Shown here: in pieces, positions 1 to 12,778 of the stretch | Layout: the number at the start of each line of letters is the position of its first letter | Position numbering within the stretch: position 1 is the first letter of the stretch | From: Flavobacteriales bacterium | GTDB taxonomy: Bacteria; Bacteroidota; Bacteroidia; NS11-12g; UBA955 | Assembly (NCBI GenBank): GCA_947457565.1 | Contig: CANGWH010000009.1 | Span: 1 to 48,412 of the forward strand | Direction: 5' to 3' | Length of the DNA stretch: 48,412 nucleotides | Program-made: the position numbers and the translations under genes | The notes under the pieces: generated by a model | What the model was told of the DNA's origin: nothing | Database searches by the model: none | The model's input: the letters and a program-made list of their open reading frames with translations, nothing else

Positions 1-137
1 ACAGCCATCGAAATCATCAAACCGTCATGATTCAATATCGATTGCCACAAAATTAACAAACCAATCAACAATCTCACTACACGAGCGAAATTCCACTGAT
101 GGGTTAACGTATACCACAAATTTTGCATATTGGCCAT
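1..137 (-). CDS. YgaP-like (DUF2892-type) small membrane protein, 3' end cut by window edge
   Basis: An open frame starts with ATG at 137, two bases after the TGA of the rhodanese gene, and runs off the left edge with about 45 codons visible. The visible part has a short amphipathic start, then a hydrophobic stretch (RLLIGLLILWQ) and a second hydrophobic run reaching the edge. This resembles the small two-helix YgaP-type membrane proteins that sit beside rhodanese genes in Bacteroidota sulfur clusters. The tight spacing argues for co-transcription with the upstream rhodanese. The family call is inferred from start, hydrophobicity and context; the diagnostic C-terminal half is not in the window. 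Confidence 0.55.
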   Translation of the reverse strand, partial: MANMQNLWYTLTHQWNFARVVRLLIGLLILWQSILNHDGLMISMA

Positions 138-139
138 CC

Positions 140-421
140 TCACATCAATTGGATTTGCATATCCCCCAAACCACCGCCATTAACTACGGTATCTAAGCCC
201 ATTTGCTGCAAAATACCCGCTGCCATTCCACTTCTGCTGCCGCTTCTGCAATATACAATTACAGGCTGATGCATTGCTTTTATTTCAGCAACCCTACTTT
301 GGATTTCATCCAAGGGAATATTTAGCGCCCCCTCTACATGCCCATCGGCAAATTCCCAACTCTGTCTTACATCAATTACTGTTGCGCCTTGTTCTTTTAC
401 TAATGATTTGATTGTGCTCAT
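140..421 (-). CDS. Single-domain rhodanese (sulfurtransferase)
   Basis: This 93-residue protein is a stand-alone rhodanese domain of usual length with no signal peptide, so it is probably cytoplasmic. VIDVRQ is at 15-20, and the active loop C58-RSGSRS carries the persulfide-forming cysteine. The domain ends with the usual G-G-x motif (NGGGLGD). Such proteins carry sulfane sulfur between thiosulfate or glutathione persulfide and acceptors. It is the first gene of a short unit with the YgaP-like gene. The unit is separated from the YeeE genes by a strong terminator and has its own CRP/FNR-type dyad at 472-485, so it is probably induced together with the rest of the sulfur island. Confidence 0.92.
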   Translation of the reverse strand: MSTIKSLVKEQGATVIDVRQSWEFADGHVEGALNIPLDEIQSRVAEIKAMHQPVIVYCRSGSRSGMAAGILQQMGLDTVVNGGGLGDMQIQLM

Positions 422-441
422 GATTGTATTATTTAATGATA

Positions 442-485
442 CAAAACAACAACAGTCCAGCCAGCCGAAAAGTAACTTGTGTCAC
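442..485 (-). promoter_or_regulatory. Predicted Crp/Fnr-family promoter of the rhodanese unit
   Basis: The top strand reads GTAACTTGTGTCAC at 472-485, an imperfect copy of the dyads at 5218 and 8635. On the minus strand TTGTTTTG at 449-442 fits a Bacteroidota -7 element (TAnnTTTG) in five of six defined positions. The dyad centre is 36.5 nt from the last G of that element, the same as at the other two sites. The start codon at 421 is about 16 nt below the predicted transcript start. Confidence 0.5.
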
Positions 486-490
486 CTACC

Positions 491-527
491 AAAAAAAAGG
501 TTAAACTGGGAAGTTCAACCTTTTTTT
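491..527. terminator. Bidirectional intrinsic terminator after the YeeE genes
   Basis: An inverted repeat with arms AAAAAAAGGTTAAACT and AGTTCAACCTTTTTTT (16 pairs, one mismatch) surrounds a GGGA loop. U-tracts occur on both strands. On the minus strand it lies downstream of the YeeE-family gene ending at 611 and just upstream of the next promoter, so it divides the sulfur island into two transcription units. Confidence 0.85.
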
Positions 528-610
528 AGAAATCGATCACAATCTATTTCGCAAACAACAAAGCGTGGGGTTTCCAAAAAGAAATACCACAACGCTCATT
601 GAAACGAGAA

Positions 611-1096
611 TTAGTGTGGAAGTTTATCGTTGTATTTACCATACACCCAAGTTCCAAAAACAGCACTTAAAAAGGTGACAATTACAACCGTAAAACCTGC
701 TCCAATTTGCGCAAATAATGGACCTGGACAAGCACCCGTTAACGCCCAACCAAAACCAAATAGTAGCCCACCGTAAATCTGACCTTTATCAAATTTCTTA
801 TCGTGAACTTCAATTTGCTCTCCGTCTATCGATTTGATTTTCTTTCGTTTAATAATTTGCAAAGACAACATCCCCACGGCGATAGCAGTACCAATTACTC
901 CGTACATGTGGAAAGAATCCAATCGGAACATTTCCTGAATCCTAAACCAACTCACAATCTCGGCCTTCACAAAAACAATCCCAAATAATATACCCACCAC
1001 GGCATATTTTATATTGGAATACCAAGGTTGCGTAATTTCCGATTGGTTTACACAGGCGGTACCCGTTTGCTCTAAGTTTTCTGTATGCTTACTCAT
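611..1096 (-). CDS. YeeE/YedE-family thiosulfate transporter, C-terminal-half subunit
   Basis: This 161-residue membrane protein has about four transmembrane segments (roughly 28-48, 62-82, 108-128, 132-152). The signature GACPGP surrounds C123. In the YeeE/YedE (TsuA-type) family conserved cysteines in such motifs pass thiosulfate through the membrane; that function is family knowledge. Classical TsuA is one chain of about 350 residues. Here the protein is split in two, and this is the second half, 12 bases after the first. A poorly conserved N-terminal 27 residues precede the first helix. It is the last gene before the terminator at 491-527. Confidence 0.85.
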   Translation of the reverse strand: MSKHTENLEQTGTACVNQSEITQPWYSNIKYAVVGILFGIVFVKAEIVSWFRIQEMFRLDSFHMYGVIGTAIAVGMLSLQIIKRKKIKSIDGEQIEVHDKKFDKGQIYGGLLFGFGWALTGACPGPLFAQIGAGFTVVIVTFLSAVFGTWVYGKYNDKLPH

Positions 1097-1108
1097 TGTA
1101 TTTTCTCC

Positions 1109-1672
1109 TTATAAATTTAATAAAAACGGTAATCCAAACCAGGTCATTAGAAAACCACCTACCATGAAACAACAGGTTGCAATCACCGATGGCCATTGTA
1201 AGTTACTAATACCCATAATCGCATGGCCCGAAGTACAGCCACCCGCGTATCGGGTTCCAAAACCTACCAAAAATCCACCCAAAACCATAAATACGAGTCC
1301 GCGTAGTGTTGCCAAACTCTCCCAGGAAAACAGATCTTCAGGCATTAACCCACCGAAGTCCTTAATTCCTAAGGCAAACAACTGATCGTGCGTTTTTTCG
1401 GCCACCACCACATCGTTGGGATTGGTTAGGAATGTAGCCGCAATAAATCCTCCAATTAAAACACCCCCTACAAAGAACAAATTCCAAGATTCGCGCTTCC
1501 AATCGTATTGAAAAAACGGAATCTTTGCCGGAATGCATGCCGCGCAGATATGTCTTAAGGAACTAGAAATCCCAAACGACTTATTCCCCAACAACAGCAA
1601 CGTTGGAACTGTTAGTCCGATGAGAATCCCCGCCACATACCAGGGCCAGGGTTGCGAAATAAATTCTATCAT
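1109..1672 (-). CDS. YeeE/YedE-family thiosulfate transporter, N-terminal-half subunit
   Basis: This 187-residue integral membrane protein has the YeeE signature [10 protein letters not shown] with C146 and a further pair of cysteines near 43-46 (HICAAC). Hydrophobic segments are near 11-29, 64-82, 122-140 and 162-186. It is the partner of the downstream half-size protein, and together they would form one transporter for thiosulfate or a related sulfur species. It starts four bases after the persulfide dioxygenase stop, indicating tight co-transcription. The substrate is inferred from the family and from the surrounding sulfur genes. Confidence 0.87.
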
Positions 1673-1675
1673 AGT

Positions 1676-3091
1676 TTACGATTTTACCAATTTACTCTGA
1701 CAAACAAAATCGGTTCTCGGGGCCGATGTTTTAGCAATCGCACCAAAACCACCTTCAACCTCTTTGAAATTGTGAATTCCACGAGCCTTTAAAATAGAAG
1801 CGGCAATCATACTGCGATATCCACCAGCACAATGCATGTAAAACTCACCATCATTGTCAACACCAGCAAACCAGTCGTTGATAAAATCTAAGGGCTTATT
1901 GTAGGCATCTTCTACGTGTTCGGCGCGATACTCGCTTTCTTTTCTAACATCCACAACGATAGAAGTTCCAATATTAACTTCGGATGCAAACGTCTCCGCC
2001 GAAATTCTATTTACTGTATCTACTTCTTTTCCGGCTGCGATCCAACCTGCAAATCCACCTTGCAAATGACCCATCAAATTATCAAATCCTACCCGGCTCA
2101 ATCGCGTTACCACTTCTTCTTCTCTACCTTCGGGGGTAATCAATAAAATGGGAGTTTTCACATCACCGATAACCGAACCTACCCAAGGAGCAAATTGACC
2201 ATCAATCCCGATGTTAATGCTTCGAGGAATATGTCCTTTGGCAAAATCAGCCGGACTGCGGGTATCCAACATCACGGCCTCCATAGACTCTGCGGCTACT
2301 TCAAATTCTTCAACCGAAAGCGAACGCATGCCATTGTTCAGCACATCGTCGAAGGACTTATACCCTTTTTTATTCATTGCCACATTCATAGGGAAATAGG
2401 CAGGCGGAGGTAATAACCCATCCAATACGGCTTCAATAAAGGATTCCTTACTGGGTTGATTTAATGCATAATTCATCTCTTTCTGATGACCCAATGAATC
2501 CATAGTTTCCTTCATCATATTCTTTCCACATGCAGAACCTGCCCCGTGAGCTGGATAAACCATTACTTCGTTTGGCAATGGCATAATTTTATTCATCAAG
2601 GAATCAAACAACATACCTGCCAATTGCTCTTGGGTCATATCAACAGCTTTCTGCGCCAAATCCGGTCTCCCTACATCGCCCAAGAACAAAGTATCTCCGC
2701 TAAACAAACTGTGGGGATTGCCCTGTTCGTCCAGCAATAAATAGCAAGTGCTTTCCATAGTATGTCCGGGGGTATGTAACACCTTCAAGGTGATATTCCC
2801 GATTTTAAATTCTTGATTATCTTCCGCGATTACGCATTCAAAATCAGGGTTTGCCGTGGGCCCATAGACGATGGGAGCTCCGGTTTTCTTACTTAAATCC
2901 AAATGTCCACTTACGAAATCGGCATGAAAATGCGTTTCAAAGATATATTTCAACGTCACCCCATCCTTGGCCAATCTATCCAAGTAAGGCTGCACTTCGC
3001 GCAAGGGATCGATAATTACCGCCTCTCCTTGGCTGTGGATGTAGTAGGCGCCTTGTGCCAGACATCCCGTGTAAATCTGTTCTATATTCAT
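1676..3091 (-). CDS. Persulfide dioxygenase-rhodanese fusion (CstB type)
   Basis: This 471-residue protein has three parts. Residues 1-~230 are a metallo-beta-lactamase fold of the ETHE1 persulfide dioxygenase group, with H54-x-H56-x-D58, H110 (TPGHT), D133 (SGDTLF) and H182 (PAHGAG) as metal-site candidates. Residues ~258-355 form a rhodanese fold without an active cysteine (the loop reads ITPEGREE). Residues ~363-455 are a rhodanese with C421 in HCAGGYRS. This is the CstB layout. Such enzymes oxidise low-molecular-weight persulfides to sulfite and thiosulfate using non-haem iron and O2 in the cytoplasm. The neighbours fit: thiosulfate transporters downstream, cytochrome and sulfite exporter upstream. 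The family call is secure; the physiological persulfide is not known. Confidence 0.93.
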
Positions 3092-3103
3092 AATCGTTTT
3101 ATT

Positions 3104-4171
3104 TTACTGTTTAGGAATTGATTTTTTCACCGCCTTTATAGGCTTAAATGGACCAAACTTATGCTGTTTTTCCGAAAATTGATCGGCAAACGGACCAAAT
3201 GGATGATCAAATATTTTCTCTTCGATTTTTGGCCAATCCTTACTCAAATCTTTGGCAGGTCTTGGCATGTTGTTTACATAAGCTGCGATATCCCATGCTT
3301 CTTCGTCCGTTAATTGGGGCTGCAAATAGGTTGTACCCTGAGGCATATTGGCTTTGATATACCCTGCAAAACGAGATAACCGATACAATCCTGCACCGTG
3401 GTTATAGCTGTTTTTACCCCATAATGGCGGGTATGTGTAGGATTTCCCATCGGCGGCCATCACCCCAGCTCCATCGGATTGATGACAACTTACGCATTTT
3501 GTTTCGTAGAGCTTCTTACCATTTTCTGGACTTGCTGCTCTATCCAAAAATGCCAATTCATATATCCCGGTCCCTTTAGGCTTTTCGTCTTTTTTAACAT
3601 TGCTTCCAACAAAATTAATGTACGCCACAATAGCCTCCATTTCTTTGGTACCTTTAGCCGGTGCAGTGCCATTGAGTGATCGTTCAAAACAATCGGTCAC
3701 TCGCTTATAAACATCTTCCATACTTCCGCTTCTGCCCCGATACTTAGGGTAGGTAGAAGTAACTGCAGCATAATTATTTCCCCAGGGTTGTGTACCTGCA
3801 TTTAAATGGCAATTTTGGCAATTCATACCGTTGGTTAGTTTCGCAACGCTACCCTTAGGACCCAAGTATACCGAAGTTTTAACAATCAATTCCTTACCAT
3901 ATTTTATCAATTCGGCGTTGGGTAATTTATTTAATTCATCGTCCGATGGGGGTATCCACATACCTTCGGCTTTATCGATGGCAGGCAATCCAATAGCACC
4001 CTCCGAACCGGTCAACAATACGGAGGTAGAATCCGTTACCGTCGGACTTGAACTTGTATTATTTCGGCCGAATAAAATCCAAATAGCCATGCTTAAAACG
4101 GCAATTAGCAACACGCCAATTACAATCATCAGCGAATTAATGGATCGAAATAGCCTTTCCGTGTTTTCCAT
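3104..4171 (-). CDS. Membrane-anchored diheme cytochrome c, TsdA-like thiosulfate dehydrogenase
   Basis: This 355-residue protein has an N-terminal uncleaved anchor (about 13-34) and two class I cytochrome c domains outside the membrane. Heme 1 binds at C118-QN-C121-H122 and heme 2 at C226-VS-C229-H230. The stretch between them (NNYAAV, YPKYRGRSG, then DCFERSLNG) matches thiosulfate dehydrogenase TsdA. C161 lies 39 residues after H122, where TsdA has an unusual cysteine axial ligand. M276 (NMPQG) and M302 (NNMP) are candidate ligands for heme 2. TsdA joins two thiosulfates to tetrathionate, or the reverse. The call is strong at family level; the direction and true substrate cannot be read from sequence. 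The gene lies between the sulfite exporter and the persulfide dioxygenase genes. Confidence 0.82.
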   Translation of the reverse strand: MENTERLFRSINSLMIVIGVLLIAVLSMAIWILFGRNNTSSSPTVTDSTSVLLTGSEGAIGLPAIDKAEGMWIPPSDDELNKLPNAELIKYGKELIVKTSVYLGPKGSVAKLTNGMNCQNCHLNAGTQPWGNNYAAVTSTYPKYRGRSGSMEDVYKRVTDCFERSLNGTAPAKGTKEMEAIVAYINFVGSNVKKDEKPKGTGIYELAFLDRAASPENGKKLYETKCVSCHQSDGAGVMAADGKSYTYPPLWGKNSYNHGAGLYRLSRFAGYIKANMPQGTTYLQPQLTDEEAWDIAAYVNNMPRPAKDLSKDWPKIEEKIFDHPFGPFADQFSEKQHKFGPFKPIKAVKKSIPKQ

Positions 4172-4189
4172 AATACTGCTTCCTCAAAA

Positions 4190-5158
4190 TTAATGTCCGC
4201 CTGCCGCTCCTCCAAACACTCCCAACGTATCCAAAATCATATATATCCCCAACAATAACACCATCCAACCAAAGGCCGGCTTCAACTTATTGCCAGGAAT
4301 CTTTTTACTTAATTGACTTCCAACAAGAATACCCACTACCGCAATCGACGAAAAGATGAATAAAAACTGCCAATCGATGGTATTTCCCGCTTTTAAATCG
4401 CCCCCAAAAAAACCAATTAACGATTTACTGGCAATAATAATTAACGAGGTACCTACAGCCTGTTTCATAGAAAGTTTGGCCATCAACACCAACACTGGAA
4501 TAATTAAAAAACCTCCGCCGGCGCCTACCAAACCCGTAACAAATCCAACCAACAAACCTTCTCCCAAAATCAACGGATAATTGAAATTGGCATCACCAGT
4601 ACTGTCTGTATTCTCCGTAGTTTTGGAAGGTTTGATCATCGAATACGATGCCGCTACCATCAAAATAGCAAACAGAATTAAAACCGCTACGGCTTTTGTA
4701 AATTCAAAGCCTCCCACCGTAAACAACAAATCAGGAATATTGGGCATCACGTATTTCCTCGTTAACAAAACGGTTACGATACTGGGCGCACCGAACACCA
4801 ATGCAGTTCTCCAATGCACATTGCCCATTCGAATATGACTAACCGAACCTACTAAACTCGTTAACCCCACCACAAACAACGAATAGGCCGTTGATAAAAC
4901 CGATGGGATAGCAAATAATTTCACCAAAATTGGAACCGTTAAAATTGAACCTCCACCACCAATTAGCCCCAGCGACAGTCCCATCAATAATGCCCCTACA
5001 TAACCGAAAATCGTTAGCCACGTAAGGCCGGAATCGCCCACTGATGCAGAAACCTGAGCGGCAACATGAGCCGTATTTGAATCAGAAACTAAGGCAGTAA
5101 CTGTATCTATCGGAACAGCGGTTTGTAGTAACTGTAAAGCGAACAAGGATGTATGCAT
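4190..5158 (-). CDS. TauE/SafE-family sulfite/organosulfonate exporter
   Basis: This 322-residue multispanning protein has the two internally related halves of the TauE/SafE family. Each begins with a glycine-rich loop: GLIGGGGSILTVP near 65-77 and GLVGAGGGFLIIP about 145 residues later. About eight transmembrane helices are predicted, after an unusual polar N-terminal stretch of some 45 residues. Members export sulfite or sulfonates, which fits removal of sulfite made by the co-transcribed persulfide dioxygenase. It is the first gene of the unit tauE-like, tsdA-like, cstB-like, yeeE halves (gaps of 4 to 18 bases). A CRP/FNR-type promoter lies directly upstream at 5188-5231. Confidence 0.88.
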   Translation of the reverse strand: MHTSLFALQLLQTAVPIDTVTALVSDSNTAHVAAQVSASVGDSGLTWLTIFGYVGALLMGLSLGLIGGGGSILTVPILVKLFAIPSVLSTAYSLFVVGLTSLVGSVSHIRMGNVHWRTALVFGAPSIVTVLLTRKYVMPNIPDLLFTVGGFEFTKAVAVLILFAILMVAASYSMIKPSKTTENTDSTGDANFNYPLILGEGLLVGFVTGLVGAGGGFLIIPVLVLMAKLSMKQAVGTSLIIIASKSLIGFFGGDLKAGNTIDWQFLFIFSSIAVVGILVGSQLSKKIPGNKLKPAFGWMVLLLGIYMILDTLGVFGGAAGGH

Positions 5159-5187
5159 TAAAAATATTATTTAATAATTATAAACTT

Positions 5188-5231
5188 CAAAATTGTACCA
5201 AAATCATTAAGCCCACAGTGACTTAAATCAC
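5188..5231 (-). promoter_or_regulatory. Predicted Crp/Fnr-family promoter of the tauE/tsdA/cstB/yeeE unit
   Basis: The top strand holds GTGACTTAAATCAC at 5218-5231, a dyad that fits TGTGA-N6-TCACA. On the minus strand CAATTTTG at 5195-5188 matches TAnnTTTG at five of six positions. The dyad centre lies 36.5 nt from the last G. With a start site four to five bases downstream the dyad would sit near -41, the class II activator position. The leader to ATG 5158 is about 25 nt. Confidence 0.6.
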
Positions 5232-5259
5232 ACTAAAAACAAATTTAACCATACCCGGA

Positions 5260-7137
5260 TTAACGGAAATCGTAATCATACCCTTCCAATTGTGATAGCA
5301 ACGTGATTGGCTTATCGGTACAAGTGATTCTACCTTCTAATTTAGGAGCTACGGGGGAATTTACTTTTAAATAATCTTTCATGATTTGGTGCAAGGTTAC
5401 ATCCAACTTTTGCGGATTTTGCACTTTTTCCAATCGGCACAAGGTATCAACAGGATCCCCTTCGCGTTCGCAAGCCACGATGCTATACATTTTTTGCAAA
5501 TCCAATTTCTTCCCTTTCACTTTTATCCAGTTTATTCTACTGCCTTTGGGTTTCCCCGAGGTGAAATTTACCTCCATTCCTTTGAATCGTACCACCCAGC
5601 CACCAAATCGTTTGGCAGGATCCACTGCAAATACATTTTCCAATTCCTTTTCCAACCAGTCCCACAACTGCTTGCCCGATACCATGGCTTTCTTTGCTTC
5701 CGAGTCTACGGGCAACATACTCCACAAATACTCTTCGGTGATTTCGGCCTTACCCGTTTTGGGGTCAGGCAACAAGGGCGGACAGAATCTAAATCCATTG
5801 CTCAATGCAATATCCGGCTTCAATTTCCACATTAACGCATCGGTAATCATATTGTCCATGGGAGTTTCCAAAACATAATATCTCACCAACGGAGTTTTTG
5901 TCACACCGATAACCGTATCCAACTGCTTTTTATACGGAGTTCTTACCTGCTCCACCAACGCTTCCATTTCGGCATCGGCTGCATACTTAGCAGGATCAAC
6001 ATCCATCAACTCATAATGATGTTCTTTTACGATCCCGTTTTCTACCACAATATCCAGCTTCCCCAAGAAAGAAGCAAACGCTCCCGGTTCCGTAACCTTG
6101 GAATATTTCCCTTCAATTGGTTTTCTCACCCGTTCGTGGGTATCGGCACCTAAAATATAGTCCGCACCTTCAACATAGGATTTATTCGATAAATCTACTT
6201 GTTGTGCCAAGCCCATATGAGTCACCAAAAACACCATGCTACACTGCTCATAATCGCGCAAATATTTGATCAATTTCTGTGCGTTTTCAGCGGGATCGGT
6301 AAACTTGATACCATAGCTGTAAGCCGGGGATTGACGCTTGGGCGTGAGCGGATCATTATACCCTACAAAGCCAATTTTAACCCCAGCCACATTGGCAGTC
6401 CAATACGGAGGGTACAACGATTCACCACATGCCATCCCGGGGATATCGTGATACATATTCGCGCAGACCTTGGCTGCATGGTAGCCCCCCAAATCGCGCA
6501 TCATCAAATCTTTACCGTATACCACCTCCCAATTTCCAGGAAGCATTAAATCGTATCCGATATTATTAATTAACGGCACAATCGCTTTCCCCTGACTTAG
6601 GGCCGCCACTCCAGAGCCCTGAAAACAATCGCCGCCATCAATCACCAAGGTATTCCCCGGATTTTCGTTTCGGATTTCGTTAATCATGGTTTTCAGATGA
6701 GCCATCCCACCTCTTCGCTTGTATACGGGTTTACCGTTTTCTAAAAAAAATTCATCATGAACGTACAATTGCCCGTGGATATCGGCAGTATGCAGCAGCG
6801 TAAAATGTTGTGCCTTACCGGATTTTATGGTCGATGATTTCTTGATTGACGCCAATACCGATTCATCCGATGGGGCATGCGAAGCATCCATGGGAATTCC
6901 CGGCGAAACCGACAAAGACTGGTTAGTATTCCCGGCCGATGGATCCAAACTCGATAAACCATGCACCAAAGAAGGTGCAGCTCCTAAGCCCAAACCTACT
7001 GCTCCCAGTTGTTTAATAAACCCTCTTCGATTGGGTTTACAACAGGTGCACCCGGGTAAATGGGGGTTTTCATCGTTTGCATTTGCAGTACTTTTCGATG
7101 CATTATTGGAAATATCCTTATTGTAATTTTCAGCCAT
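5260..7137 (-). CDS. SoxB-like Tat-exported dimetal hydrolase (5'-nucleotidase superfamily)
   Basis: This 625-residue protein has a twin-arginine signal (NRR-GFIK at 36-42, then a hydrophobic run ending near 60), so it is exported folded. The metallophosphoesterase domain shows D119-x-H121 (TADIHG), G168-GD, G201-NWE and a GADTH motif; a 5'-nucleotidase C-terminal domain follows (about 400-600). SoxB cleaves sulfate from SoxY-bound sulfur. The tryptophan in GNWE recalls SoxB (GHWE as I remember it), while the asparagine recalls 5'-nucleotidases (GNHE), so the protein is SoxB-like rather than certainly SoxB. Oddities are a 35-residue extension before the RR pair containing C30-T-C32-C33, and no SoxYZ or SoxXA genes nearby. 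It follows the porin gene by 15 bases. Confidence 0.8.
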   Translation of the reverse strand: MAENYNKDISNNASKSTANANDENPHLPGCTCCKPNRRGFIKQLGAVGLGLGAAPSLVHGLSSLDPSAGNTNQSLSVSPGIPMDASHAPSDESVLASIKKSSTIKSGKAQHFTLLHTADIHGQLYVHDEFFLENGKPVYKRRGGMAHLKTMINEIRNENPGNTLVIDGGDCFQGSGVAALSQGKAIVPLINNIGYDLMLPGNWEVVYGKDLMMRDLGGYHAAKVCANMYHDIPGMACGESLYPPYWTANVAGVKIGFVGYNDPLTPKRQSPAYSYGIKFTDPAENAQKLIKYLRDYEQCSMVFLVTHMGLAQQVDLSNKSYVEGADYILGADTHERVRKPIEGKYSKVTEPGAFASFLGKLDIVVENGIVKEHHYELMDVDPAKYAADAEMEALVEQVRTPYKKQLDTVIGVTKTPLVRYYVLETPMDNMITDALMWKLKPDIALSNGFRFCPPLLPDPKTGKAEITEEYLWSMLPVDSEAKKAMVSGKQLWDWLEKELENVFAVDPAKRFGGWVVRFKGMEVNFTSGKPKGSRINWIKVKGKKLDLQKMYSIVACEREGDPVDTLCRLEKVQNPQKLDVTLHQIMKDYLKVNSPVAPKLEGRITCTDKPITLLSQLEGYDYDFR

Positions 7138-7152
7138 AGGCCTGTATTTCTT

Positions 7153-8598
7153 TTAGAAGTGATAATTCAATATTAAGTTATAATGGGTTAAATTAACCTT
7201 ATTAATCTCGAATTTCGGCAAATATCCTTGTTGTTCGATGGCTTGTTTCAAAACTATCAAAAACTGAATCTCCAAGCCCTTGAAAAAATCTTCCATGCTG
7301 TATCGAACATCCAAATTGGCTTGGTAATAAGCCGGAAAACCATATTTATTTAATTCGAAATTATAGATATTGGGCAGTTTATACCTACCTATTCCAACAT
7401 CAATTTTCAGAGGCATTTCTGTAAAACCATAACTGTACAACACATTCATCGCCCAAACATCGCCATAGCCTTCGTTTCGTTCCCGGGGCATAAAGGTATA
7501 AAACGGATCTCTACCCCATTCTCTGGGCATCAAGTAGCGTCCATGGCCGGTGATTCGAGTTCCATTAAGGGTAATTCGCTGGTTCTGATTTATTTGTTTC
7601 CCCAATCGAACCCCAAACACAAAACTTCTATTTTGGGGCTGAAAATACGCTTGGTTGATTTCTACATTGCCTCCGTTCCCCAATGAATGTTGATGAATCC
7701 CTTGAATTCCATAGATCCAAGCTCGATTCTTACTCCCTATTTTACCATCCCATTGGGTTAAGTATGTTTGAAACATATTGTACACCGTTTGCGACCACAA
7801 CATCAGATTCCCGCGGTTGGTTCTTACCGAATATCCTGCGTACAAAACAGAAGAATGCGGTAGATTACCGGCATATTGCGACCTCGAACCATCGGGATTC
7901 ACGCCCACACCGTATAGGCCTACAGAGTGTCCTACCGAAAACCATCGTACCGTGCTCCGTGGCGAAATTCGATCAATCGCACCCAACTGCAACAATCCGT
8001 TTTTCCCTAGTTTTTTTTCTGCTAATACACCTTGAACCAAGGTAGGTCGCATCCTTCCGTCTTGTGGATTTAAAAATGGGGTTCGAATATGTTGCTTCCC
8101 CGCCTTAATCATCCAGCTTTTCGATGGCAACGAATACTTTATGTACAAATCTTCCAATCGATCCAAATCATCGTGATTCCCTGGATTTAAGACATCAAAC
8201 AATCCCACTTCATAGCGATTGGGCTGATTGGAAAGTTGATCAATTTTAGTTAAATCGGACGAATACACATCATAAATGGCATATCCACTAATTCCCAACT
8301 GAAAATTTCGATAAACGCCGGTTTCATAACCAATACCCACACCTATAGCATTGGCGAAATAATCGGAATAATTGGATGCATTATTGGTAACCATGCTATA
8401 CCATCGGGCATGACCAAAAAAATTTCCCGACCGCAAAAAATCCTGTAACGACTTGGGCTTTACTTTAGCGCCTGTGGAATTAGTATCCAAGCTCACTCTT
8501 TCGTTGGGGTGAACGTAGGGATGATCTTGCCCCTTCAAGTGAATGTGGCTAAAAAATAAAGCACCAATTACCAAGACTACATGGCGAACACCAAACAT
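7153..8598 (-). CDS. Outer-membrane beta-barrel protein, OprD-like porin
   Basis: The chosen start (ATG 8598) gives 481 residues with a signal peptide (hydrophobic VVLVIGALFFSHI, then a GQ-D cleavage region). The frame is open upstream to 8673, but those codons would include the predicted operator and -7 element, so the longer start is unlikely. The mature part has many alternating aromatic/polar segments and ends in YHF, the terminal phenylalanine of outer-membrane barrels. Phrases such as SVLYAGYSVRTNRGNLML and SQTVYNMFQTYL resemble OprD-family porins. Being first in the unit with the SoxB-like gene, it probably admits a sulfur substrate to the periplasm. Barrel confidence is high; the OprD assignment is moderate. 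Confidence 0.75.
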   Translation of the reverse strand: MFGVRHVVLVIGALFFSHIHLKGQDHPYVHPNERVSLDTNSTGAKVKPKSLQDFLRSGNFFGHARWYSMVTNNASNYSDYFANAIGVGIGYETGVYRNFQLGISGYAIYDVYSSDLTKIDQLSNQPNRYEVGLFDVLNPGNHDDLDRLEDLYIKYSLPSKSWMIKAGKQHIRTPFLNPQDGRMRPTLVQGVLAEKKLGKNGLLQLGAIDRISPRSTVRWFSVGHSVGLYGVGVNPDGSRSQYAGNLPHSSVLYAGYSVRTNRGNLMLWSQTVYNMFQTYLTQWDGKIGSKNRAWIYGIQGIHQHSLGNGGNVEINQAYFQPQNRSFVFGVRLGKQINQNQRITLNGTRITGHGRYLMPREWGRDPFYTFMPRERNEGYGDVWAMNVLYSYGFTEMPLKIDVGIGRYKLPNIYNFELNKYGFPAYYQANLDVRYSMEDFFKGLEIQFLIVLKQAIEQQGYLPKFEINKVNLTHYNLILNYHF

Positions 8599-8848: not shown

Positions 8849-9643
8849 TTAGTCAGCCATATACGAAATAGGCAAATGAAACAGGTTTACTGCGTTTTGG
8901 GTGGTGGTTTTGGCCACTTCTTGCAACGAGACTGATTTTACCTCGGCCAGTTTTTGGGCCACCAACAAGGTATAGGAGGGTTCATTTCTACTTCCGCGAT
9001 GGGGAACTGGGGGTAAATAGGGCGAATCCGTTTCTAGTATTAGATGTTCCAATCCTATTTGAGAGAGAACTTCGGGCAAGCCTGCATTTTTATAGGTAAG
9101 AACACCGCCAATACCCAAATAAAAGCCTTCCAATTTTAAAATTTCCTGAGCCAGTTCGTAGCTTTCCGAGAAGCAGTGAAACACCCCGGTTAATCCTTTA
9201 CCTTTAAATTGTTTTAATAATTGAATGGTCTGTTGCGTTGCATTTCGAGTATGAATAGCGAGTGGCAACTTATGGGCCACCGCAAACTCAGCTTGTAACA
9301 AAAATGCCTGCTTCTGGATTTCTTCGGTAGTTTTATCCCAATACAAATCCATACCCATTTCACCCACGGCCACATAATTATGTTTGGTAAACAAATCGAA
9401 CATTTGGGTTAATACGGTTTGATAATCCTCTTTTACATCGCAAGGATGCAAACCCATCATGCCAAAACATTGGGAAGGATAATCCTGCATCAATTGATGC
9501 AATCCTGGGATTGAATCGAGGTCGATATTCGGCAACAAAATCTGCTTTACTCCGGCTTTCAAGGCTCTTTCTATGGCCTGAGGTCTGTCTTCGTTGAATT
9601 TATCAGAATAAAGATGACAATGCGTATCGATTAAATGAACCAT
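8849..9643 (-). CDS. tatD: TatD-family metal-dependent DNase
   Basis: This 264-residue TIM-barrel amidohydrolase-like protein has normal family length. IDTHCHL at the N-terminus carries the HxH metal pair (H8, H10). The VGEMGMD segment contains the metal-bridging glutamate, AIHTRNA and GVFHCFS supply further histidines, and LETDSPYLPP is the C-terminal TatD signature with its aspartate. TatD enzymes are cytoplasmic 3'-5' exonucleases or DNA-repair nucleases. The start lies six bases after the enoyl-CoA hydratase stop, so the two are co-transcribed. Ordinary family member. Confidence 0.95.
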   Translation of the reverse strand: MVHLIDTHCHLYSDKFNEDRPQAIERALKAGVKQILLPNIDLDSIPGLHQLMQDYPSQCFGMMGLHPCDVKEDYQTVLTQMFDLFTKHNYVAVGEMGMDLYWDKTTEEIQKQAFLLQAEFAVAHKLPLAIHTRNATQQTIQLLKQFKGKGLTGVFHCFSESYELAQEILKLEGFYLGIGGVLTYKNAGLPEVLSQIGLEHLILETDSPYLPPVPHRGSRNEPSYTLLVAQKLAEVKSVSLQEVAKTTTQNAVNLFHLPISYMAD

Positions 9644-9649
9644 TTCTAA

Positions 9650-10423
9650 TTACCAAGTTAATTTTTGTTTGTTTAAAAAGGCATCGATTCCTTTGATACA
9701 ATCTGGGGTGGCGCGGGCATGAGCATTCATGCGGGCGGCATAATCGAGGGCTTGATCACGTTGCATAGAAGGGATTTCCCGAAGCATTTCTTTAACCGTA
9801 GACACGGCCGCCCCGGATGTGCCTTCAGCACATCCCCGCGCCACCGCACCCACTGCCTCATCAATATCCTCAGAATTAACTATCCGCTGCACCAATCCCA
9901 TTTCCTTCGCCTCCGTGGCATCCAATATTCTTCCGGTTAACAACAAATCCCGCATAGCACCGCCTCCAATTTTCTCTGCCAAATACACCATCACCAACGC
10001 CGGAATAAACCCAATCTTCACCTCCGTATACCCAAAACTGGCTTCCGGAGTGGCAAAACACAAATCCGACAAGGTTGCTAATCCGCAACCCCCGGCCAAG
10101 GCCGGACCTTCCACCTGCGTGATCACCAACTTCGGAGAATGATACATCGCGTCAAACATCCTTCTCAATCGCTGAGAATCCACTTCGTTCTCCTCCAAAC
10201 TGTTGTTGCGCAACTGGGTCAAATACTGCAAATCCGCCCCCGCACAAAAAGGTTTATCCGAGGATTTTAACACAATCACACGTACATCCTCCCTGGCATT
10301 GGCCAATAAAAACGCTTCCGTCATCCCCTCAATTAACTCAACACTCAACGCATTGCGCTTCTCCGGCCTACTCATCACTATCCAAGCAATTCGATTTTCC
10401 ACAGAAAAATTCAACACAGACAT
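9650..10423 (-). CDS. Enoyl-CoA hydratase/isomerase-family protein
   Basis: Starting at ATG 10423 gives 257 residues, the usual crotonase length. The open frame continues to 10528, but those extra 35 residues are Gly/Ser/Arg-rich, unlike the family, and would include the predicted promoter. Crotonase features are SRPEKRNAL, CAGADL (first oxyanion-hole loop) and GPALAGGCGLA (second loop). Acidic residues in TPEASFGYTEVKIGF are the likely catalytic positions. It resembles the methylglutaconyl-CoA hydratase branch (leucine degradation), but the substrate is not certain. It heads a two-gene unit with tatD. The transcript is probably leaderless. Confidence 0.9.
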   Translation of the reverse strand: MSVLNFSVENRIAWIVMSRPEKRNALSVELIEGMTEAFLLANAREDVRVIVLKSSDKPFCAGADLQYLTQLRNNSLEENEVDSQRLRRMFDAMYHSPKLVITQVEGPALAGGCGLATLSDLCFATPEASFGYTEVKIGFIPALVMVYLAEKIGGGAMRDLLLTGRILDATEAKEMGLVQRIVNSEDIDEAVGAVARGCAEGTSGAAVSTVKEMLREIPSMQRDQALDYAARMNAHARATPDCIKGIDAFLNKQKLTW

Positions 10424-10427
10424 AGTA

Positions 10428-10435
10428 CAAAGGTA
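10428..10435 (-). promoter_or_regulatory. -7 element TACCTTTG directly before the enoyl-CoA hydratase start
   Basis: The minus strand reads TACCTTTG at 10435-10428, an exact TAnnTTTG. A TTTA lies 20 bases upstream (10459-10456) as a near match to the -33 TTTG. Only four bases separate the box from ATG 10423, so the transcript should begin at or next to the start codon. Confidence 0.55.
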
Positions 10436-10528
10436 CAATCCAAACTCCGTACTTCTAAAATACATCCTTGATCTCGCCTCCCAACAACTACCCCCACCAC
10501 CGCGTATAAACCCTTTCTTTACATCCAA

Positions 10529-12778
10529 TCACCAACGTACCCGAACCCTTTCCACGCCCCGCTTTAATCGATACTTCTCCAACCGCAACCCCAACCTACT
10601 TTCCCAGCGATTGCGGTTTACCACAGTCCTCTCCCAGCGCTTAAACCCCACATCACGTTCCCAGCCCTTGCCACTTAATTTAGCACTGTCCCATCCTCCG
10701 TCCCCAACACTACCCCTACTGCCCCCTTCAACTCCCCCAGAATAACGCTTCTCCCCAGTCCAAACCTTCCTTTTTACCGAAATTACCAAGGTTTCTTTAC
10801 GCTTATACCCCCAAAAGTCTTTCCCGCCCAATCGACCCGAAAAATAATCATCGGCAGTAACCCATCGCATCCGTTGAACCTCAATCCATACTCCTGTTAC
10901 CAAAATCAAAGCCAAAGCTACAGTCCAAAGTTGTACAACCCGATTCCCAAATCGAACTTCCAGCCACAAACACCAACATACCCAAACAATAAGCAAAAAA
11001 ACTAAACCAACCGCTACCCAATCCCATTGGTACGAAAACAATTGAGAAAACGGCAACTCCAAAACAAGCAACAACTTCCCCAGTACCCACGAATACAACC
11101 GGTCCACCACCATACCCAACCCGTTTCCTAACAACGGAATCCAACCAAAAATTAATACAATCAAAGCCGCATACAACAATATCGTAAATAGCGGAACCAT
11201 CAACAAGTTCACCGGCAAAAACCAAACTGGGAATGTCCCAAATCCCCCCATAATCAAGGGAAATGTAAATAATGTAGCCGCAACGTTCATGGCAACCGAA
11301 CCTAACAACAACTGCCAACCGGCATCCATTTTCTTGGCCCCTATCCAATACCGCATCCAACGCTCTACCCTACTTTCACCCCTTAAATTCTCTATTCTAA
11401 TTAACCAAAAATCCCTTAAAACAGGATAAAAAATCAACAAAGACAATACCGCTAAATAACTAAGCACAAATCCTAAATTGTAAATTGAATAAGGCTGTAA
11501 CAACAATTGTATATATGCGCACCCTAACCAAACATGCAAACTCGACACCCGTTTGCCCACCCAATACTTGGCCAACCACATCCACGATGCAGACAACATG
11601 GCTCTTACCACTGCCGCACTGCCACCCGTAAGCACTGCGTAAAACCAACCAATTACCATTAATATCAGTAACGCTACTTTCGTAGGTCGGGGCGTTCGCC
11701 CAAAACCCGTAAACACCCATAAAATAGCCCCCATCACCAAGGCTACATGCATGCCCGATACCGCCAAAACATGCATCAACCCACCAACTCCAAATGCTTT
11801 TACAGTTTCCGAATCTACTTCCTTCGTTTCGCCTACCAACAACGCTATAGCCATCGCCGCGGCTTGTGGAGACAACCGCCCCCGCAATTGATCGCGCAAC
11901 CAACCCAAACACCGCAACCGCAAATCCAACAACCCATTCCTAGACAAATACTTACTCCAACCCATCGGGACATAACTCCCCAATAAACCATACCTTTCCG
12001 CTACCATAAAAGCGCCCAATTGTACCGCACCAACCGTAGTATCCCGCACCAACTGATTCTCAATCCTAAAAGCCCCCAATCGCAACGCGCTATCAAAAGC
12101 TTGTCCACCCGTTTCCGTTGGTTTCGCCCCCCCCAAAGCCGCAGAATATCCGCTCGGTTTTATCGGCCATGTTAATCGACCGTAATACCCTTTCGACCCA
12201 AAAATCAACGGCCAATCCGTATCGTCGGGAATGCCACTATCCTCAAATTCGCTCAAGGCCGATCTTGGTATAATCCACTGTTTTAATGGACCTACCCAAG
12301 GCTCTGAATCTTTCCTCCATCGTGTAATTTCCACCCAAAACTTGCCATTTACTCGCGCCTCTTTAGCTACAGAATCCACACAATCCACCACCATCCAATC
12401 AGAAGATCCGCAAACCTGTTCAACACGCCCTCGTTCAAACACTTCCCAAATTCTATTACTCGGCAACTGAGGCGGTAATACCCAATAGCCTAACCCAACA
12501 TTCAAACAATAAATACACCAAGAACGAAACCCTCGATGTACCCTCGTTGAAAACGATACCCCTCGAAAATAAATCACCAGTAAAACCCCTAATACAACCG
12601 CCGATAACACTAAAACCAGGACAGCCCATATCCAAATGGATGGCTGATATCCTGAATTAGAATATTCCGGAAGCCAAGCAAATACTGCATAACCCGATAA
12701 TAAACCCAATAAAGGGAGGAAGAAAAAATGAGATCTAAAAAATCCCAGCAGCTGTTGGTGTACCAATAAATTTCGCAT
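10529..12778 (-). CDS. comEC: ComEC/Rec2-family DNA-uptake channel protein
   Basis: This 749-residue membrane protein has an N-terminal pair of helices and a soluble DUF4131-like part (about 20-230), then a competence-domain helix bundle. Signature segments are ALLVGETKEVDSE and LAVSGMHVALV (about residues 300-345). ComEC carries single-stranded DNA across the inner membrane during transformation. It lacks the C-terminal metallo-beta-lactamase domain of long ComEC proteins. Instead the last ~100 residues are a basic tail rich in Gly, Trp and Arg of unknown role, which may be poorly conserved. The coding strand is notably G-rich compared with its neighbours. Confidence 0.9.
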   Translation of the reverse strand: MRNLLVHQQLLGFFRSHFFFLPLLGLLSGYAVFAWLPEYSNSGYQPSIWIWAVLVLVLSAVVLGVLLVIYFRGVSFSTRVHRGFRSWCIYCLNVGLGYWVLPPQLPSNRIWEVFERGRVEQVCGSSDWMVVDCVDSVAKEARVNGKFWVEITRWRKDSEPWVGPLKQWIIPRSALSEFEDSGIPDDTDWPLIFGSKGYYGRLTWPIKPSGYSAALGGAKPTETGGQAFDSALRLGAFRIENQLVRDTTVGAVQLGAFMVAERYGLLGSYVPMGWSKYLSRNGLLDLRLRCLGWLRDQLRGRLSPQAAAMAIALLVGETKEVDSETVKAFGVGGLMHVLAVSGMHVALVMGAILWVFTGFGRTPRPTKVALLILMVIGWFYAVLTGGSAAVVRAMLSASWMWLAKYWVGKRVSSLHVWLGCAYIQLLLQPYSIYNLGFVLSYLAVLSLLIFYPVLRDFWLIRIENLRGESRVERWMRYWIGAKKMDAGWQLLLGSVAMNVAATLFTFPLIMGGFGTFPVWFLPVNLLMVPLFTILLYAALIVLIFGWIPLLGNGLGMVVDRLYSWVLGKLLLVLELPFSQLFSYQWDWVAVGLVFLLIVWVCWCLWLEVRFGNRVVQLWTVALALILVTGVWIEVQRMRWVTADDYFSGRLGGKDFWGYKRKETLVISVKRKVWTGEKRYSGGVEGGSRGSVGDGGWDSAKLSGKGWERDVGFKRWERTVVNRNRWESRLGLRLEKYRLKRGVERVRVRW

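Follow-up and report, generated by a model that had tools for sequence, protein, structure and literature searches.

How SoxB chemistry could run without the SoxYZ carrier is the question raised by contig CANGWH010000009.1 of a Flavobacteriales bacterium (assembly GCA_947457565.1), on which the gene for a SoxB-like dinuclear metallohydrolase stands within an island of sulfur-related genes. The window analysed here is this entire contig (48,412 nucleotides) of a 2.37-Mb metagenome-assembled genome (MAG) of a freshwater-type Bacteroidota, with 144 contigs and 93% completeness; sequence to the left of position 1 is therefore absent from the assembly, and the gene set may continue beyond it. An earlier reading, made from the sequence only, had described a compact inorganic-sulfur island with a SoxB-like enzyme and no other Sox genes, and had taken it for an alternative pathway. 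We directly observed the gene content of the island, its conservation and linkage, the family and residue assignments of its products, and the absence of Sox partners. It appears fairly probable to us that the island encodes a thiosulfate/sulfane-sulfur oxidation module that, like that of Erythrobacter flavus, works independently of the SoxYZ carrier.

Absence of Sox partners and conservation of the island

Searches of the whole genome returned no matches to SoxY or SoxZ, and neither SoxA nor SoxX was found above cut-off: the sole SoxA signal came from the TsdA gene of the island (27.5 bits versus 110), and SoxX gave a weak match of 29.3 bits versus 61. No Oxidored_molyb protein, whether of SoxC or SorA type, was found in the genome either. 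Positive controls from the same phylum (Chlorobi-type) were detected for SoxY, SoxZ, SoxA and SoxX, and those for Oxidored_molyb came from other bacteria and one Bacteroidota genome. SoxY was recovered in 47 of 396 Bacteroidota-phylum genomes, which indicates that the search method works; most of these belong to one family (f20), Chlorobi-like by inference, whose SoxB proteins score about 205-215 bits with the SoxB-like clade profile. Membership of that clade was set at a profile score of at least 650 bits, reached in 20 genomes of the sample, and SoxY was absent from all 20; the anti-correlation was not significant (Fisher p 0.15), and the result is one of direct absence only. SoxZ and SoxA above cut-off were likewise absent from 28 of 28 genomes carrying the clade. 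Because these include two 100%-complete genomes of the same family (G005 and G016), it is unlikely that Sox genes were missed through MAG incompleteness. The recurrence of the gene set in other Bacteroidota without SoxYZ, which the sequence-only reading had raised, is thus borne out (SoxZ 0/28, SoxY 0/20), as is the lone SoxB-like enzyme. Three open reading frames (ORFs) between the rhodanese and SoxB-like genes of Cytophagales loci were suspected of encoding SoxY, SoxA or SoxX (165, 290 and 248 aa); on inspection they proved to be a secreted rhodanese, a sterol-desaturase-like protein and a lipoprotein.

The same gene set is kept in genomes of the same family and across 80 named loci, which is more than chance would give. 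Linkage was counted over 90 loci (the 80 named loci and another 10 taken from relatives and from the window, with a few contigs under two ids), and the counts are lower bounds because many loci are truncated. Up to 8 kb from the SoxB-like gene, TsdA was found in 72 loci, TauE and the dioxygenase in 58 each, YeeE in 50-51, the porin in 47 and the rhodanese in 46. Of the 38 loci flanked by 8 kb or more on both sides, 31 have TsdA in that range, and 23 of these within 300 bp. At the genome level, TsdA was carried by 14 of the 20 clade genomes versus 30 of the 376 others (Fisher 1.3e-10, kinship not removed). Taken with the gene families, these patterns sustain the claim of a coherent inorganic-sulfur module.

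Matching stretches in GTDB species numbered 527, and the best 80 of them fall in Bacteroidota or unnamed bins. Flavihumibacter, Niastella, Daejeonella and Runella have SoxB-like genes, as do many freshwater MAGs; the module usually accompanies these genes, which also occur on plasmids. Plasmid pRUNSL04 of Runella slithyformis carries TauE, metallo-beta-lactamase (MBL) dioxygenase-type proteins, a TsdA-type cytochrome, DsrE, the SoxB-like protein, the porin and both YeeE halves, which suggests that the module is kept as a unit; parts of it were also found on Pontibacter and Hymenobacter plasmids. Public annotation names the plasmid copies of the SoxB-like protein 5'-nucleotidases, and thiosulfate oxidation in heterotrophic Bacteroidota is for this reason easily overlooked. 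Crp/FNR-like regulators adjoin many module copies. Several copies, though not that of the window, include a TPMT-like methyltransferase (L032:2011-2709, L034:6540-7214, L036:5017-5865), fused once to a heavy-metal-associated domain. In the window, the flank at 8849-12778 encodes TatD, an enoyl-CoA hydratase-like protein and ComEC; it is common to the closest relatives, in which the module thus occupies a fixed chromosomal site.

The diverged SoxB-like hydrolase

The SoxB-like protein (5260..7137, minus strand) scores 258.9 bits against the canonical SoxB model TIGR04486, for which the cut-off is 550, and by its motifs it is not a canonical SoxB. We compared it with SoxB of Paracoccus, Bradyrhizobium and the Chlorobi type and with nucleotidases; the key residues of the window protein are W203, R450, C452 and D332. 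The active-site Trp is kept (GNWE, versus GHWE or SHWE in SoxB and GNHE in nucleotidases), as is the SoxB-type FR motif with its Arg (SNGFRF). The first His of the metal-binding GHxH motif of canonical SoxB is replaced by Asp (GADTH in the window protein) in all 90 members checked, and a SoxB insert of ~45 residues (REPxxNxGxG) is missing. An extra Cys comes after the FR motif, beside the active-site Arg; GNW, DTHER and FRFC were present in 90 of 90 members, and a deep branch of the clade has FRFG in place of FRFC. As the metal ligand has changed and the insert is missing, the substrate may differ from that of SoxB.

It is very improbable that this protein is a 5'-nucleotidase or phosphoesterase merely located in a sulfur cluster. 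Fold comparison gives no separation: an AlphaFold model (mean pLDDT 74.7, with the N-terminal 105 residues unreliable) matched the nucleotidase 3ivd at 8.6e-38 and SoxB at 9.1e-38, so fold alone is not decisive, and the Asn of GNWE is shared with GNHE nucleotidases. The catalytic His of UshA-type 5'-nucleotidases is, however, replaced by Trp, and the best PDB relative by sequence is Thermus SoxB. In a maximum-likelihood tree, 33 SoxB-like proteins formed one clade (100/100), separate from canonical SoxB, from a second Trp-bearing clade of ~475 aa and from His-bearing nucleotidases; the latter stood with related GNHD proteins on their own branch (99/94), and when the tree was rooted there all Trp proteins formed a single group. 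Together with the constant linkage to sulfur genes in other genomes, the residues and the tree led us to reject a nucleotidase identity, in agreement with the sequence-only reading.

Canonical SoxB is Tat-exported, and the window protein likewise has a Tat signal (RRGFIK), preceded by an N-terminal CTCC tail. In most SoxB-like proteins (window, L041-L120), a short tail rich in Cys (CxC or CxCxxC) likewise precedes the twin-arginine motif; this position, unusual for cysteines in a Tat signal, perhaps relates to metal loading or pre-export quality control. In the deep branch, the gene cluster reads DoxX, secreted DsrE-like protein, SoxB-like protein (some of them lipoproteins) and TlpA-like protein (L154, L155, L156, L157). 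The ~475-aa clade was found on Firmicutes, alphaproteobacterial and Bacteroidota plasmids (L142, L143, L144, L145, L147, L148), where its genes often adjoin DsrE, TusA, rhodanese or MBL genes. One Pontibacter plasmid holds three SoxB/nucleotidase-family paralogues, and a Bradyrhizobium betae plasmid (L146:5725-7473) has a lone canonical soxB beside the chromate efflux gene chrA, and the displayed stretch contains no further sox gene.

Proposed route and its alternatives

ORF calling and hidden Markov model (HMM) scans place eight complete ORFs and a truncated ninth between position 1 and ~8.6 kb, all on the minus strand; most intergenic gaps are 4-19 bp, which fits an operon. Of the nine consecutive sulfur genes originally described, the eight complete ones hold, and the ninth, a putative YgaP/DUF2892-like membrane protein (1..137, minus strand, frame translation), is a 46-aa fragment that runs off the contig end.

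For the reactions of this module, their direction and any energetic benefit, we infer the following scheme. Thiosulfate would enter through an OprD-like outer-membrane porin (7153..8598, minus strand; NF033923 28.9 bits and PF03573 23.2 bits, just below cut-off), whose gene has an ATG start at 8598 in an open frame reaching 8673. TsdA (3104..4171, minus strand) would join two thiosulfates into tetrathionate, with the respiratory chain receiving the electrons. After export by the Tat system, the SoxB-like hydrolase could then release, as sulfate, a terminal sulfonate of tetrathionate or of a thiosulfonate adduct derived from it. The sulfane sulfur (or thiosulfate) that is left would be imported by a split YeeE pair, comprising a PmpB-like half of DUF6691/Sulf_transp type (611..1096, minus strand), matching the N-terminal half of TsuA, and a PmpA-like Sulf_transp half (1109..1672, minus strand; PF04143 72.6 bits), matching TsuA model positions 274-326 at the C-terminal end. 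Each half has a conserved Cys (GACPG and GGCTSGH, respectively), and PmpB and PmpA have been proposed to work as a YeeE-like heterodimer (PMC11582611). The sulfur may be handled by a single-domain rhodanese (93 aa; 140..421, minus strand; PF00581 60 bits), which has no signal peptide and has its active Cys within VYCRSGSRSG. A CstB-type persulfide dioxygenase (1676..3091, minus strand), matching 3tp9 (237 bits) and 3r2u (201 bits) over its full length, has an MBL domain and two rhodanese domains, of which the second only has the catalytic Cys; it would convert sulfane sulfur to sulfite or thiosulfate in the cytoplasm. Finally, as the genome search gave no molybdenum sulfite oxidase, sulfite would be exported by the TauE/SafE-family protein (4190..5158, minus strand; PF01925 139.9 bits), a putative sulfite exporter.

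The TsdA-type diheme cytochrome c has an N-terminal membrane anchor, matches thiosulfate dehydrogenase 4wqc at 6e-40 and, by alignment, binds two CxxCH hemes (C118/C121/H122 and C226/C229/H230), with the heme-1 ligand Cys161 kept and Asn275-Met276 at heme 2, M276 being the heme-2 Met of the family. The oxidizing TsdA of A. vinosum has Lys at the position of the Asn, and that of C. jejuni, which is bidirectional and biased to tetrathionate reduction, has Asn (PMC5146829). The Asn-Met motif is compatible with both oxidation and reduction, and either direction is possible. Its resemblance to the reduction-biased C. jejuni enzyme (PMC5146829) is one of several points that weigh against carrier-independent oxidation: six of the 20 clade genomes lack TsdA by the same test, the deep SoxB-like branch is also without it and has DoxX, DsrE and TlpA in its place, and the changed metal ligand and missing insert of the hydrolase may signify another substrate than that of SoxB.

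An alternative that we consider rather unlikely is that the SoxB-like enzyme attacks a thiosulfonate bound to a carrier protein, either a DsrE-like protein that is secreted and has one Cys or a rhodanese located in the periplasm; this carrier would be loaded by chemical reaction with tetrathionate or by TsdA. Secreted DsrE-like proteins whose single Cys is invariant are encoded within 8 kb in 33 of the 90 loci and within 300 bp in 11 of the 38 well-flanked ones, and even the deep branch that lacks TsdA has a distant secreted DsrE directly beside its SoxB-like gene. Because the Metallosphaera proteins DsrE3A and TusA react with tetrathionate to give Cys-S-thiosulfonates (PMC4175335) and relatives often hold a secreted DsrE, this protein is a candidate SoxYZ substitute in the species that have it. 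No secreted DsrE-like protein was found, however, in the genome under study or its nearest relatives (G005, G010, G016, G020, G007), and the rhodanese of the cluster is without a signal peptide. We accordingly rejected DsrE as a universal carrier, and the earlier suggestion of a different carrier is weakened, since the sole plausible protein carrier in relatives is absent here. A carrier is, moreover, not chemically required, given that trithionate, a small molecule, is a substrate of SoxB (PMC5336275); sulfate release from another carrier is possible, and free tetrathionate is the simpler substrate. We give limited credence to the idea that, for the diverged enzyme, either a DsrE-type carrier replaces SoxYZ or its own Cys452 transiently holds the sulfane sulfur so that no carrier is needed in this genome; if true, this would be a further way of running SoxB chemistry in Bacteroidota, by an enzyme that has Asp as metal ligand and, except in the deep branch, a Cys adjoining the active-site Arg.

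A CstB-type dioxygenase, YeeE, TauE and a rhodanese make up a detoxification-type set, and the module might serve to detoxify or redox-balance persulfide, tetrathionate and sulfite, with TsdA acting partly as a tetrathionate reductase and no energy-yielding oxidation. The Asn275-Met276 pair shared with C. jejuni, the Crp/FNR-like regulators and the TPMT-like thiol methyltransferases of several copies are consistent with such a role, yet a sulfate-making sulfonate hydrolase would be an oxidative end step and the porin suggests uptake, beyond internal detoxification; we regard this explanation as quite unlikely.

Comparison with known systems

Carrier-free TsdA-SoxB oxidation is already published. 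In E. flavus, deletion mutants of tsdA and soxB indicate that SoxB works downstream of TsdA and ahead of zero-valent sulfur; TsdA forms tetrathionate, SoxB forms sulfate and zero-valent sulfur, Sdo enzymes oxidize that sulfur, and SoxYZ is not involved (PMC7608252). The authors of that study list Bacteroidetes as holding tsdA and soxB and propose the route for them (PMC7608252), and among 21 Bohai Sea MAGs with SoxB alone, eight also have TsdA (PMC12345210). The alternative pathway of the sequence-only reading therefore stands as a carrier-free gene set, not as a new principle. In the open-licence literature we found no description of the Bacteroidota module, of its occurrence on plasmids or of its clade of diverged hydrolases. 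Cultured carriers of the module exist, so a route free of Sox carriers can be put to a direct test; the conserved substitutions to Asp and Cys raise the question of how SoxB chemistry proceeds without SoxYZ.

At the gene level, the module resembles the TsdA-SoxB-SdoA/SdoB system of E. flavus 21-3 in combining TsdA, a SoxB-type hydrolase and a sulfur dioxygenase without SoxYZ, SoxXA or SoxCD; in that strain, an MBL-rhodanese sulfur dioxygenase, TsdA and SoxB form one thiosulfate-induced cluster (PMC7608252). Unlike it, the window module adds an OprD-like porin and a CstB-type enzyme, and its hydrolase belongs to a Bacteroidota clade distinct from canonical SoxB. That hydrolase shares with canonical SoxB (Thermus, Paracoccus, Chlorobi) the fold, the active-site Trp and Arg, the DxH/GD/H metal motifs and Tat export, but differs in GxDTHER for GHTHD, GNWE for GHWE, the missing insert and the extra Cys beside the Arg, and the genome lacks the SoxYZ and SoxXA of the canonical pathway. 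TsdA is like those of A. vinosum and C. jejuni in its two hemes, its Cys ligand (in DCFERSLNG) and its heme-2 Met, but has Asn for Lys208 of A. vinosum, as in C. jejuni, and is also N-terminally membrane anchored. The dioxygenase has the MBL domain and the inactive and active rhodanese domains of CstB and type III persulfide dioxygenases, with its Cys in GSACGK, and unlike CstB it is linked to TsdA and SoxB-like genes. The YeeE halves, with a conserved Cys each, are like the thiosulfate or sulfur importers PmpAB and TsuA, their substrate here being putative. Plasmid islands of Sphingomonadaceae (Novosphingobium pSA3, Sphingomonas p01, Blastomonas) hold an MBL dioxygenase-type protein, split YeeE and DsrE together with either TsdA or a SoxB-like gene, and two of the three also have TauE; unlike that of the window, the Novosphingobium SoxB-like protein belongs to the ~475-aa Trp clade. 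The Bacteroidota module is thus probably a lineage-specific form of the carrier-free TsdA-SoxB route, with a diverged SoxB-like enzyme and thiosulfate oxidized via tetrathionate.

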